A program made the translations under genes and the position numbers. A stretch of 64,000 nt of DNA from Halomarina pelagica (lineage in GTDB: Archaea > Halobacteriota > Halobacteria > Halobacteriales > Haloarculaceae): positions 2,728,001-2,792,000 of the forward strand of contig NZ_CP100454.1 of NCBI RefSeq assembly GCF_024228315.1, read 5' to 3'. Of the stretch, positions 45,879 through 51,424 are shown piece after piece. The notes beneath the pieces were generated by a model. It was not told the origin of the DNA and ran no database searches. It worked only from the letters and a program-made list of their open reading frames with translations. Each line of letters begins with the position of its first letter. Positions within the stretch are counted from its first letter, which is position 1.

Positions 45879-46044
45879 AGACGCGGGTTCCGACGGGGGC
45901 GGCATAAGCGATACGTTCCGCGGCGGACGGCTACGGAGCGTTCGACCCTCGTCGGCCTCGCCAATCCTCGGCGACGGATCGCCTCCACCGCGAACCGCTC
46001 GGCTGCGATCCGATTCCGGTTCGATGGAGCCGTGGTCGGGCGAA

Positions 46045-49000
46045 CTACGTCGTGCTGACCTCCGGAAGGCCCGCGACCACGCTGATGGAGGTGTTGGTCG
46101 CGTTGGTCAGCATCGGCCCGAGTCCCTCCCAGGGCACGTCGGCCAGCGCCTCGCGCAGTCCCCGTCCGGCGGGCACGGTGTAGGTCGTATCGCCCTCCGT
46201 CTCCACGACGAGAGCCGCCAGCGCATCCTCGCCATCCGGCGGCTCCGTGGTCGCGAGGGAGATGCCGGCGCGCTCGCCCGGCTCGCCGACGAAGACGCCG
46301 TCGGCCGTCGAGAGGTCCGTGACGTTCCGCCCGGCCCCGTTCTCGAAGACGTAGACCGCCCCCGCGTCCACCCCCGCGAGGTCGCTGCGCGGCACGCCGA
46401 TCACCAGATCGTTCGTCCCCGAGCCGGTGAGATCAGTTCGGAGGACGTTCCAGCCGGGGCGTTCGTCCGGCGTCAGCCCCATCTTCTTCGCCATCTCCGG
46501 CAGCGGGTGAATGGGCGTCTCGAACTCGGCCGGGTTCTTCCGCACGCGGAAAATCCCCCAGAAGCCACCTTCGAGGCGGCGGCGCTCCTTGAGTTCACCG
46601 TAGAGGAAGTCCCCGGTGCTCTCCGCGAGGCCGCCAGCGCCGCTGACCATGTCCAGGAACTCGGCGCTCCCGACCGTGAACTTGTCGTCGACGCCGATGA
46701 TCGGCGAGTCCGCCACGTCGGTGAAGCGCCGCCACTGATGTTCGGAGATGTGGAACGACAGACCCCGCGCCTTGTCGGAGAGTTTCCCGACGAGGAACCT
46801 GACCTCGTCGCCGAGCAGCGCCCGCGGAATCGGCGTCGCTGGATCGCCGTGCGTCTCCGAGTCGAAGACCAGGTGCTGGGCCGGGTTGTTCTCGAACCGA
46901 CGGATGAACGGCTCCGACCGGTTGTTGATCGCCGGGTAGCCCTGATCCTCGCGGTCGCCGATCTGGTTACAGGGGGCGTCGGGGTTCTCCGTGTCGGGAC
47001 CAGGCGGGACGACGCAGTTGTCGGGGTCGTTCTCGTTGATGATGAATCGGGCGTCGCTCATCTGGAGCGTGAACTCCCGCCTGTCGGAGCCGTCGGGGTT
47101 CTTGAGCATCACGCTGTCGCCCGTCGGCGCGGGCTCGGCCGTCCGCGGGTCGAGCCACGTCGCACCCGGCGGTTCGACCGCCAGCGCGCCGAAGGCACCG
47201 TGGTGGCGGTGGCTCCGGAGGTCCGCCGTGTCCCAGAGCGCGACGAAGGGGTGGTTCTCGTGGGGCGACCAGCGGTAGGTGATGGTCTCGCCGGGCGCGA
47301 CCGTCTGATCGAAGTTGAACCCGACGGTGGCACCGTCCGACCCGTTCACGTCGTAGTCAGTGTGCAGGGCGTGCAGCGAGATCCGACTCGACGGATCCCA
47401 CGGCTGTTCGATCCGCATTAGCGGGTGTGCGTGGTCGTCGTCGAGATCGCACGGGAGTTCGTTCGTGAGGTTGATCTCGATACAATCGCCCTCGTTCGCC
47501 CGGATGACCAGCGGTTCGGCGGGACGGTCGCCGCACTTGATGTCCTCGACGTGTTCGTCGAGCGCGTAGACGATCCCGAACGGGTCGTGATCGCCGTACT
47601 CGTTGAACTCGATCTCCGTCTGGAACGCCGTGACGTCGAACCGTCGCACTCGCGCGTCGTCCGGGCAGGGATCGCCCGGGTCGGGCGCTTTCGGTGGCAC
47701 CTCGCCGACGTTCCTGTTCTGGCGGGCGTCCTTGTCCGGCGGGAACGCCCGACAGTCGTCCTCGTCGTAGAGCAGTTTCGCCCGCTGGCCGAGGCGCTCG
47801 AGGCGCTTGAGCCCGAGGAAGGGCGCGAAGTGGCCCATCCGTTTGAGGTCCTTCTTCGTGATCTTCTTCCCCTTCGGCGGGCCCCGATCGGGGAGTGGCT
47901 TGAGGTGGGGGGTCTTCGCGTCGAAGACGCGGTGGATCCCCCACATCCCCGTCCACCGATCGTCGATGATGCCCGTCCCGTAGAGGTAGTCCTGGATGGG
48001 AAGGCCGAACGGGTTGTCCATCCGATCGAAGTCGGTCTCGTGCTCCGCGTCGTGTGGATCGACGAAGAACGTGAACTGCTCGGAGGTACCGATGATGTTC
48101 GAGACCGTGTCCTCGCGGGCCAACCCTTCCGTCTCGAAGAAGCGACCGTGGATCTGGAAGTTGTGCTGTTCCTCCCAGGCACCCTGGATCAGCCGGATCC
48201 GGATCGGGTCGTTCGAGTAGGCTTCGAGCAGCGGCGTCGGCGGATCGCCGTGGACCGCTGAACTGAACGAGTAGGCCGGGTCGGGGTCGCCGCGCTGGTA
48301 GACCGGCGCGTTCCGGAGGTTGATCGCCATCGTCCCCGCGTTCTCGTTGTGCTCCTCCTCGTCGTTGATGAACTCGCCGTCGCGGTCGACGAGCTGGGCG
48401 AAGTCGTGGAGGTGGAGACAGAACTCGCGGAAGTCGTCCTTGCCCTTCGGCGTCTTGATAATCGCCTGCGCGCCGCTCTCGATCGGTTCGCCCGAGTACG
48501 GATCGAGGTACTCAGAGCCCTCGGGTTCGACGATGAGCGCGCAGAACTCGCCGTGCATCACGTCGTCGATGCCGAAGATGTGGTCGTGGAAGTAGATCGG
48601 CCCCTCCTCGTCCGCGTACCACCGGTAACTCCGCTGTTGACCGGGCTCGGTGTCCTGATCGTAGTTGTAGCCGTTGGCGAGCGAGTCCGACCCCAGCAGG
48701 TCGAAGCTCACGAAGTGGGGGTGGATCGACACCGGCCGCTCGGTTTCGTTCTTGAGCGTGATCTCGACGCAGTCGCCGACGTTCGCGCGGATGAACAGCG
48801 GCTCGGGGTTCATCTCGCCGGTGCGGATCGCCTCCGCGTCTTCCTCTAAGGCGTAGACGATCCCGTCGGGGTCGTGATCGCCGTTGTCGTTGTAGACGAC
48901 GTCGGCGGGAAGCGCGACGATGGTGAACTCACTGACTGGCGCGTCCTTGCCCGCGGGCGGCCCACCGAACTTCGTGTTGTCGATCCAGGGATCGCAGGGG

Positions 49001-50907
49001 TCCGCGTACGGCGCGCCGGGGACGATCTCGCCCAGTGCCTCCTCCTCCTCGGGCGTGGGCTGGCGACCCGTTTCGAGGGGGTTCGGTCCAGTCGCGAGCG
49101 GCGAGTCCGGCGGCGGACTGCCGACCTCGTTGGGGATGAAGTCGGGGAAGCCCGGGATCGGCGAGTCTTCGGGGAGAATACCCCGCGGGAACGGCACCTC
49201 GTCGGGCACCGGGTCGTCCGCGATGGTCGTACTCGGCAGCGGCTGGAGGCCGCACTGCTCCTTGTCGAAGATGCGGAAACTTCCCCACATCCCCTCGCCG
49301 TAGTGGGGGAAGAGATGACAGTGAAAGAGGTTGTCGCCGGCGGTGCCGTGCGCGCCGCCCGCGCCGATCTCGAACGCCTCCTCGAACGTCATCTCGGGTC
49401 GCACCGTCTCGATGGGACCGGACGCCTCCGACCCCTGCGCCTCGCCGTGGGCCACGACGAAGTAGACGGGGTAGGCCGCGCCCAGCCCGATCGTCTGGGA
49501 GTCGATCGTGTCGGAGTCCGAGCGCCCGGGGATCGTCTTCCAGCGGTGGGCGTGGAGGTGGTGGACGTGGTTCTCCTCGGTGGACGCCCCGACCGCGACG
49601 AACTTCATCGGGTCGCCCTTGTAGACGGGGTAGGTGTTGTCGCCGCCGCCCGGGTCGCCGTTTATCCACGAGTTGTAGAAGAACTCCTCCAGGAGTTCGG
49701 GTTCCACGTCGAGTTCCTCGGCGCGGTCGGGATCGGCCCGCTGGCCCGTCGGATCCGCCCGGTAGTTGATCGCGTGGATCGTCTGCTCGTTGTCCGTCCC
49801 GGGGAAATCGACCCGCGGTTCGAGCCCCTCGGGTGTGTGGTAGTGGACGACGATCTCGCGGTAGCTCGTCCCGATGAACTCGGGGTCGTGGATGTCGGCC
49901 TGGACGCCGCTTCGGATCTCCCCGCCGGTGAACGGATCGGTCCAGGTCGCGCCCGCGGGCTCGACCATCATCGTCCCGAACAGGCTTCGGGCCAGCAGGT
50001 TCGCCTCCTGGGGTGGCTCCTCGGCGCTGTCCATGGCGGGGTTCGCGAGGTCGTAGAAGAAGTGGGGCCCCTGGTGGGCGGCGAACCAGCGGTAGGTGAT
50101 CGACTCGCCTGGCGCGACCGTCGTGTCCGCGTTGAACCCGACCTTCGCGCCGTCGGACTCCTGTACGTCGTAGGGCAGGCCCGTCTGGTGCATCGACGCG
50201 TGGCGATCGAGGTGATTGATGAACTCGATCTCGACGATGTCGCCCTCGTTGGCGCGGATGACGAGCGGGCGCAGCACCGACGTGTCGATGCCGTCGTCGT
50301 GCGGATCGCCCGCGGGGTGGTCGTCACCGCCGTGATGGTGGGTCCCTCGCTCGTGGTCGTGCCCGCCGTCCTTTCGGTGGCGGTGGTGCTGGTCGGCCCC
50401 GTCGGGGTGGTGGTGATCGTGATCGGCTCCCTTCGGGTGCTGGTGGTGCTTGTGGTGGTCGATGTCGATGTGGGCGGTGTCCTCGCACTGCTCCTTGGCG
50501 TCGGAGCCCGAGTAGAAGTCGACGCGCTGTTCGTCGCCGTCGATCGCCTCGAACGCGTCGTTCGGGAACGTTCCAGAGGCCTTGCGCGCGGCCTTCAGGT
50601 CCTCGTCGAGGACGTACATCGCCCCCTTCGGCTGGTGGAGGCCGAACTGGTTGTACGGAATGTCTACCTCGATGGCGTGGACCGTGAACTTCCGGACCTT
50701 TCCGTCTTTCTTCGGTTCGTCGGGGACGTGTCTCTCGTCGCCGTCGAGGACGCCGAACGCGCCGCCGCCGAGGGCCATCCCCGACGCGAGCGCGCCGCTT
50801 CCTGCTAAGAACGATCGCCGCGTCGCCTGGAGGGAGCCCCGCGCTCCCCCCTCGATGCCGCCGTCCGGTGACACGCTATCGCTCCGGTCCGCTTCGTCTT
50901 TTGTCAT
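46045..50907 (-). CDS. Giant six-domain multicopper oxidase with permuted copper motifs
   Basis: A 1620-residue Tat-exported protein (ATRRSFLAGSG, twin Arg at 30-31). It has three tandem two-cupredoxin units (about 65-580, 650-1060, 1085-1530). Copper motifs are H447-x2-H450-L-H452-A-H454, H529-C530-H531-x3-H535-x4-M540, H729-P-H731 and H774-D-H776. Together they give one type 1 and one trinuclear site, with motifs 3 and 4 in domain 2 and motifs 1 and 2 in domain 3. Domains 4-6 lack the HCH motif. Residues about 145-205 are His-rich (about 19 His). The tail (about 1535-1580, DLTGSGTNDLVIGVPRSD) resembles an FG-GAP repeat. It is similar in plan to MnxG/MofA-type manganese oxidases; substrate not proven. 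Confidence 0.88.
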   Translation of the reverse strand: MTKDEADRSDSVSPDGGIEGGARGSLQATRRSFLAGSGALASGMALGGGAFGVLDGDERHVPDEPKKDGKVRKFTVHAIEVDIPYNQFGLHQPKGAMYVLDEDLKAARKASGTFPNDAFEAIDGDEQRVDFYSGSDAKEQCEDTAHIDIDHHKHHQHPKGADHDHHHPDGADQHHRHRKDGGHDHERGTHHHGGDDHPAGDPHDDGIDTSVLRPLVIRANEGDIVEIEFINHLDRHASMHQTGLPYDVQESDGAKVGFNADTTVAPGESITYRWFAAHQGPHFFYDLANPAMDSAEEPPQEANLLARSLFGTMMVEPAGATWTDPFTGGEIRSGVQADIHDPEFIGTSYREIVVHYHTPEGLEPRVDFPGTDNEQTIHAINYRADPTGQRADPDRAEELDVEPELLEEFFYNSWINGDPGGGDNTYPVYKGDPMKFVAVGASTEENHVHHLHAHRWKTIPGRSDSDTIDSQTIGLGAAYPVYFVVAHGEAQGSEASGPIETVRPEMTFEEAFEIGAGGAHGTAGDNLFHCHLFPHYGEGMWGSFRIFDKEQCGLQPLPSTTIADDPVPDEVPFPRGILPEDSPIPGFPDFIPNEVGSPPPDSPLATGPNPLETGRQPTPEEEEALGEIVPGAPYADPCDPWIDNTKFGGPPAGKDAPVSEFTIVALPADVVYNDNGDHDPDGIVYALEEDAEAIRTGEMNPEPLFIRANVGDCVEITLKNETERPVSIHPHFVSFDLLGSDSLANGYNYDQDTEPGQQRSYRWYADEEGPIYFHDHIFGIDDVMHGEFCALIVEPEGSEYLDPYSGEPIESGAQAIIKTPKGKDDFREFCLHLHDFAQLVDRDGEFINDEEEHNENAGTMAINLRNAPVYQRGDPDPAYSFSSAVHGDPPTPLLEAYSNDPIRIRLIQGAWEEQHNFQIHGRFFETEGLAREDTVSNIIGTSEQFTFFVDPHDAEHETDFDRMDNPFGLPIQDYLYGTGIIDDRWTGMWGIHRVFDAKTPHLKPLPDRGPPKGKKITKKDLKRMGHFAPFLGLKRLERLGQRAKLLYDEDDCRAFPPDKDARQNRNVGEVPPKAPDPGDPCPDDARVRRFDVTAFQTEIEFNEYGDHDPFGIVYALDEHVEDIKCGDRPAEPLVIRANEGDCIEINLTNELPCDLDDDHAHPLMRIEQPWDPSSRISLHALHTDYDVNGSDGATVGFNFDQTVAPGETITYRWSPHENHPFVALWDTADLRSHRHHGAFGALAVEPPGATWLDPRTAEPAPTGDSVMLKNPDGSDRREFTLQMSDARFIINENDPDNCVVPPGPDTENPDAPCNQIGDREDQGYPAINNRSEPFIRRFENNPAQHLVFDSETHGDPATPIPRALLGDEVRFLVGKLSDKARGLSFHISEHQWRRFTDVADSPIIGVDDKFTVGSAEFLDMVSGAGGLAESTGDFLYGELKERRRLEGGFWGIFRVRKNPAEFETPIHPLPEMAKKMGLTPDERPGWNVLRTDLTGSGTNDLVIGVPRSDLAGVDAGAVYVFENGAGRNVTDLSTADGVFVGEPGERAGISLATTEPPDGEDALAALVVETEGDTTYTVPAGRGLREALADVPWEGLGPMLTNATNTSISVVAGLPEVSTT

Positions 50908-50916
50908 AGCTCACGC

Positions 50917-50939
50917 AATTACACCCGACAGGGTGAATT
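50917..50939. promoter_or_regulatory. Palindromic operator candidate of the multicopper oxidase gene
   Basis: An inverted repeat AATT-A-CACCC-GACA-GGGTG-AATT covers 50917-50939, with two 9-base half-sites apart from one extra A. It lies between the TATA box (50941-50948) and the start codon (50907), where a bound repressor would block polymerase entry. This suggests regulated, perhaps metal-responsive, expression (inference). Confidence 0.55.
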
Positions 50940-50940
50940 A

Positions 50941-50948
50941 GTTATAAA
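50941..50948 (-). promoter_or_regulatory. TATA box of the multicopper oxidase gene
   Basis: The minus strand reads CATTTATAACTAATTC across 50935-50950, with TTTATAAC at 50941-50948. It is 34 nt from ATG 50907, giving a transcription start near 50917-50920 and a leader of about 10 nt. Confidence 0.6.
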
Positions 50949-51424
50949 TGAAGTTATACACCTGAGTGTCCAGTTAATCTGGAGTACAGAGGATCCTCAA
51001 TCACTCGATTCGTGGCGTTTCAGTGCCTCTTACCTGTCGAACGGCGACACAGAATCGTCGAGGGAGGTGACACGAACCGCGACACGTTCCAGAATCCCTG
51101 CTAAGTTCATTTTACCGAGTAGTAGTCGGAGAACCGAAACTCGACTGGCTCTGTAAGACAGCGGATCGGAACGAAAACCCTCGAACGAGCGTTCTCCACC
51201 CTCTCAACCGGGAACGCGGCGATACGGAGACGTCGTCGGGGCTGAATGTATCGATAAAGGTAACAGATAGATCCGTTTAACCGTCGTTATACCTCGGCGA
51301 GGCGGTGACGGTCACCGCTCTCTGACCGAACGGGTGTCACGAGGGTCACGGCGTCGGGTTCGTCCCACCCTCGCGGCGGACGCCGTCCGCGACGCTTTTG
51401 CGGCCCCTCCGAGTACGCCACCCC
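50949..51424. other. Gene-free AT-richer stretch
   Basis: About 480 bp between the divergent multicopper oxidase and NAD-kinase-family genes have lower GC than their surroundings and no credible reading frame on either strand. I see no tRNA, repeat array or insertion-sequence end. The left part has a second TATA-like GTTATACACC (50952-50961). The segment could hide a regulatory RNA, but nothing in it proves one. Confidence 0.5.

Follow-up and report, generated by a model that had tools for sequence, protein, structure and literature searches.

The window that we analyzed is a stretch of 64,000 nt from Halomarina pelagica (GCF_024228315.1, NZ_CP100454.1, positions 2,728,001–2,792,000). An earlier note on this DNA had described a gene for a 1620-residue multicopper oxidase (MCO) at 46045–50907; the open reading frame is real and intact, that is, 1620 uninterrupted codons from an ATG start, but it lies on the minus strand. 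The features of the locus are as follows (D1–D6, cupredoxin domains; T1, type 1 copper).

46045–50907, minus strand: MnxG-type six-cupredoxin multicopper oxidase gene, 1620 aa (including the stop codon)
50764–50835, minus strand: Tat leader by motif, SLQATRRSFLAGSGALASG, residues 25–48, RR at 30–31 (Pfam TAT_signal weak, E 0.1)
49228–50712, minus strand: unit 1 (D1 and D2), residues 66–560; D2 holds the predicted T1 Cu and half of the predicted trinuclear site
50299–50478, minus strand: His-rich loop within D1 by composition, residues 144–203, 20 His in 60
49552–49569, minus strand: HVHHLH, residues 447–452, a general MCO motif; predicted T1 ligand His447, trinuclear ligands His450 and His452
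49288–49323, minus strand: HCHLFPHYGEGM, residues 529–540; by motif, predicted T1 ligands Cys530, His535 and Met540, trinuclear ligands His529 and His531
47863–48942, minus strand: unit 2 (D3 and D4), residues 656–1015; D3 holds the remaining half of the predicted trinuclear site, and the T1 ligands of D4 are gone
48715–48723, minus strand: HPH, residues 729–731, predicted trinuclear ligands (motif and conservation)
48580–48588, minus strand: HDH, residues 774–776, predicted trinuclear ligands (motif and conservation)
46498–47655, minus strand: unit 3 (D5 and D6), residues 1085–1470; a complete copper set is absent
46345–46455, minus strand: FG-GAP-like C-terminal tail, residues 1485–1521 (Pfam 17.8 bits, below the cut-off of 22.1)
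45916–51356 (approximate), no strand: insertion holding the oxidase gene alone between CinA-like and NAD-kinase-like flanks, defined by the empty site in relatives

The oxidase matches the Pfam families Cu-oxidase_3 (E 4e-22) and Cu-oxidase_2 (E 1e-12) and, weakly, the FG-GAP repeat; its C-terminal tail matches other haloarchaeal ORFs. The H. pelagica genome encodes three copies of the oxidase; the main contig carries one of them, and a 617-kb contig carries the other two. For the window copy, dN/dS is 0.30 against copy 2 of the same genome and ~0.10 against the Halocatena homologue, a pair in which synonymous sites are near saturation; judged by these ratios, the gene is under purifying selection.

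The window copy lies alone in a ~5.4-kb insertion, with a CinA-like gene on one side and a NAD-kinase-like gene on the other. These flanking genes are adjacent in eight relatives (seven from the same genus and Halocatena), that is, the site is empty; in the closest of them, whose NAD kinase is 95% identical, the two flanks can be aligned to within 5 bp of each other. Near both ends of the insertion, at 45919 and 51372, there is a direct repeat of 11 bp, CGCGGCGGACG. A palindrome upstream of the start of the window copy, CACCCTGTCGGGTG, is absent from the other copies and was discarded as a candidate.

We assigned ligand roles using the general motif rules for multicopper oxidases: H447, C530, H535, and M540 are the predicted T1 ligands, and H450, H452, H529, H531, H729, H731, H774, and H776 are the predicted trinuclear ligands. 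The motifs are located where the earlier note had placed them (447–452, 529–540, 729–731, and 774–776); however, H454, which it had counted as a ligand at the end of HxxHLHxH, has no canonical role, and its column varies (His in 30 of 35 homologues). Each motif had been said to occur once; this is correct for HCHx3Hx4M, which has one occurrence and arose in none of 20,000 shuffles of the oxidase sequence, but HxxHxH matches three places in this His-rich protein and arises in 14.6% of the shuffles, so it is weak evidence taken alone. All 12 ligand columns are invariant in the 35 homologues (33 haloarchaeal; Priestia MnxG is among the 35), so the ligand set is under strong constraint. The full set is also found in Hymenobacter and Nonomuraea; the Rubrobacter homologue has Phe in the Met540 column, and several ligands are gone from the Pseudonocardia homologue. 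Of the stray His residues previously pointed out, only the leading His in MHQ (D1) and in LHA (D5) are in former ligand columns and widely kept; HQGPH is unconserved. D4 has EQHNF where HxxHxH would be, and D6 has no HCH; the ligand alignment and the unit tree (described below) support the view that ligands are kept solely at the junction of units 1 and 2 (D2/D3). AlphaFold2 models of D1–D4 (residues 60–1060) and D3–D6 (residues 640–1480), made with few homologues, have pLDDT values of 32 and 36.

The proposal that MnxG is the closest relative is borne out by the PDB: the best sequence match is 9bxa_A (MnxG; E 1e-206 over all six domains), far ahead of the next match, coagulation factor V (E 1e-12). 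In the alignment with 9bxa, D2 pairs with D2 and D3 with D3, and HxxHxH, HCH, HxH, and HDH are all paired; the ligand order previously called ‘permuted’ is thus what members of the MnxG family normally have, Bacillota MnxG included. The sole ligand mismatch is at T1 His535, which is opposite Ala 340 in 9bxa (Priestia megaterium MnxG has His there); H340A is known as a mutation that knocks out the T1 site of Mnx, and it would account for the mismatch. Two small genes upstream of Priestia mnxG match MnxE and MnxF (9bxa_B and 9bxa_E), so the Priestia relative is encoded by a true mnx operon; together with the 9bxa match, this identifies the Bacillus Mn oxidase as the closest known relative. The earlier note had named, as evidence against its reading, clear orthology to a six-domain oxidase whose ligands lie in D1 and D6; this case does not apply because the ligands of MnxG are in D2 and D3.

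The homology to MnxG is full-length over six cupredoxins, with 12/12 ligands in D2 and D3. The MnxG from Bacillus sp. PL-12 (9bxa, which also contains MnxE and MnxF chains) shares the six cupredoxins, the D2/D3 ligand order, and homology over the full core; however, it is shorter (1227 vs 1620 aa), lacks the Tat leader, the His-rich loop, and the C-terminal tail, and acts with MnxE/MnxF, neither of which was detected for the haloarchaeal oxidase (vide infra). Pseudomonas MnxG/McoA and Leptothrix MofA are six-domain, Mn-oxidizing MCO relatives, but they differ in length; the haloarchaeal oxidase matches NCBIfam NF041487 (proteobacterial MnxG equivalog) with E 3e-55 but scores 186.8 bits against a cut-off of 3100, so it is not that equivalog. 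Small laccases share the two-domain repeat and the logic of the trimer interface, but they are homotrimers with three live sites, one unit per chain with its own full ligand set, whereas the oxidase is one chain with three units, one ligand set, and one site; its matches to two-domain laccases reach E ~1e-7 at best and are confined to single stretches. Ceruloplasmin, hephaestin, and factors V/VIII also have six cupredoxins from a triplicated unit, but their trinuclear site, if present, is between D1 and D6, whereas the trinuclear ligands of the oxidase sit in D2/D3.

Units 1 and 2 of the oxidase align with 29% identity (E 4e-34). In a single-unit tree of 12 proteins from archaea, Bacillota, Actinomycetota, Pseudomonadota, and Bacteroidota, all copies of unit 1 fall together, as do those of unit 2 and those of unit 3 (support 100, 99, and 93); thus, the three tandem two-cupredoxin units recognized in the earlier note are homologous. 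Because like units cluster across archaea and four bacterial phyla, the trimer fusion predates the window gene and the triplication is older than the spread of the family. The description of the protein as a fused laccase trimer therefore stands as evolutionary history but not as a trait special to this gene; likewise, the layout with one live site is family-wide (Bacillota MnxG included) and was described in 2013 (PMC3600357). In the portions of Vasin et al. 2013 (PMC3600357) used here, a six-domain ancestor with three sites and a D2/D3 trinuclear site in algae, bacteria, and archaea are proposed, and two haloarchaeal MnxG-like proteins, Hlac_1576 and Htur_3146, are listed; haloarchaeal MnxG-like oxidases and their D2/D3 site are, thus, already known from that work. 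These two proteins, which we liken to the oxidase by description only, are of the same kind and class, with a D2/D3 trinuclear site inferred; those portions treat them without analysis of multiple copies, insertion, or MnxE/F. The details that are new are the three copies, the clean single-gene insertion, the putative Tat export, the undetected MnxE/MnxF, and the His-rich D1 loop. The family bears the record of a clear triplication, after which two of the three active sites were lost, and the unit tree agrees.

The family is encoded by 26 of 392 Halobacteriales genomes (23 of the 345 of good quality) in 16 of 95 genera, including Halocatena pleomorpha, Halalkalicoccus paucihalophilus, and a Haloplanus MAG; in a phylum-wide sample of 393 genomes, matches are found solely in Halobacteriales. 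The gene is plasmid-borne in Haladaptatus pallidirubidus, Natronococcus sp. AD-5, Halorientalis marina, and Halalkalicoccus jeotgali. In the whole-protein tree, the 33 haloarchaeal sequences form one group separate from six bacterial sequences, and the window copy pairs with Halocatena, not with copy 2 from its own genome. Identity between copy 2 (L035 7168–12300) and the window copy is 88–94% in D1–D3 and 90% in the tail; in D5b–D6 it drops to ~70%. Copies 2 and 3 share an 80-residue coiled insertion in D5; D5b–D6 of copy 2 looks like a recombined segment, so recombination probably confuses the branch joining the window copy and Halocatena, which has moderate support (87/86) in a tree without D5b–D6. 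Split copies, each in two overlapping frames, occur in Halalkalicoccus paucihalophilus and in genome G226 (L074 7890–12091; L103 6172–11048); these are either pseudogenes or sequencing frameshifts.

A Tat-like RR motif is present in 27 of the 33 haloarchaeal homologues, and Priestia MnxG begins directly at D1; the leader of the window copy is consistent with export, as previously suggested. The D1 loop is hypervariable in the family (23 to >200 residues) and is His-rich solely in the three H. pelagica copies (20, 19, and 39 His).

Both MnxE and MnxF are needed for the activity of Bacillus Mnx (PMC5622069). Searches for MnxE/MnxF with phmmer at the haloarchaeal loci and in the whole genomes of 19 carriers, with Priestia as positive control, returned only chance-level matches, although distant forms could be missed by these single-sequence queries; neither mnxE nor mnxF was detected beside the haloarchaeal genes, as they are beside mnxG in Bacillus MnxEFG. 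The haloarchaeal copies also have no regulator or metal gene as a constant neighbor. CHRD-domain genes are located within ~4 kb of several copies (L034 12127–12822; L084 4990–5643; L078 3784–4590), and PadR-like genes are near four. We rejected a conserved operon because no partner gene recurs in most loci, the CHRD and PadR-like genes being near only some.

The window gene probably encodes an exported six-cupredoxin oxidase of the MnxG clade, with one T1 Cu in D2 and one trinuclear cluster at D2/D3 that reduces O2; we infer that the ligands fold into a single cluster. Electrons from the substrate would enter singly at the D2 T1 copper (H447, C530, H535, and M540) and be carried by the H529-C530-H531 bridge to the trinuclear cluster (the eight His ligands assigned above), where O2 would be reduced to water; the junctions between units 2 and 3 and units 3 and 1, with their ligands lost, would have a structural role. 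The likeliest substrate is Mn(II), which may be oxidized extracellularly, an assignment that we hold with about equal belief and doubt; alternatively, the substrate could be another metal ion, Fe(II) or Cu(I), or else an organic reductant. Points against our reading are the ~38% identity to Priestia MnxG, the undetected MnxE/MnxF, and the missing constant neighbor among regulator and metal genes. In the literature searched, which excludes most subscription journals, there is no report of haloarchaeal Mn oxidation or of Mn oxide formation by an archaeal MnxG without MnxE/F.

The same fold and copper chemistry would also serve a metal-detoxifying or iron oxidase acting on Fe(II) or Cu(I). In favor of this, MnxE/F were undetected, the His-rich loop suits Cu handling, and six-domain ceruloplasmin and Fox1 are ferroxidases (in part from PMC3600357); there is also a CopA-type copper-resistance match (TIGR01480, E 1e-10), but it is local and far under the cut-off, and MnxG is by far the closest characterized relative, so we regard this function as possible but somewhat unlikely. 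A laccase-like oxidase of organic substrates, of the fused two-domain laccase type, is improbable: two-domain laccases are among the weaker matches, but the full-length kinship is to MnxG. We give almost no credence to chance motifs or a decaying gene; although split copies exist at other loci (G226, L074), the window copy is intact, keeps 12/12 ligands, and has dN/dS well under 1, and the invariance of the 12 ligand columns across 35 homologues rules out chance motifs.

Returning to Mn(II) oxidation by the MnxG-clade oxidase, an unlikely but specific version is that the haloarchaeal MnxG works without MnxE/F as a Tat-exported single chain, with disordered metal-binding loops (His-rich here) supplying Cu/Mn. 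If the oxidase does act on Mn, a known enzyme class would give the archaea living in salt lakes and salterns a part in the Mn cycle; an E/F-free MnxG would also be a simpler system in which to learn how a two-electron metal oxidation is driven by a single T1 copper.

D5, which has no copper site, contains the motif DxADxRxHRHHG (residues 1226–1237; 47197–47232, minus strand). We considered it as a second metal site but do not propose one, because the MnxG in 9bxa does not keep both of the last His residues; the motif is, nonetheless, near-invariant in archaea and bacteria.
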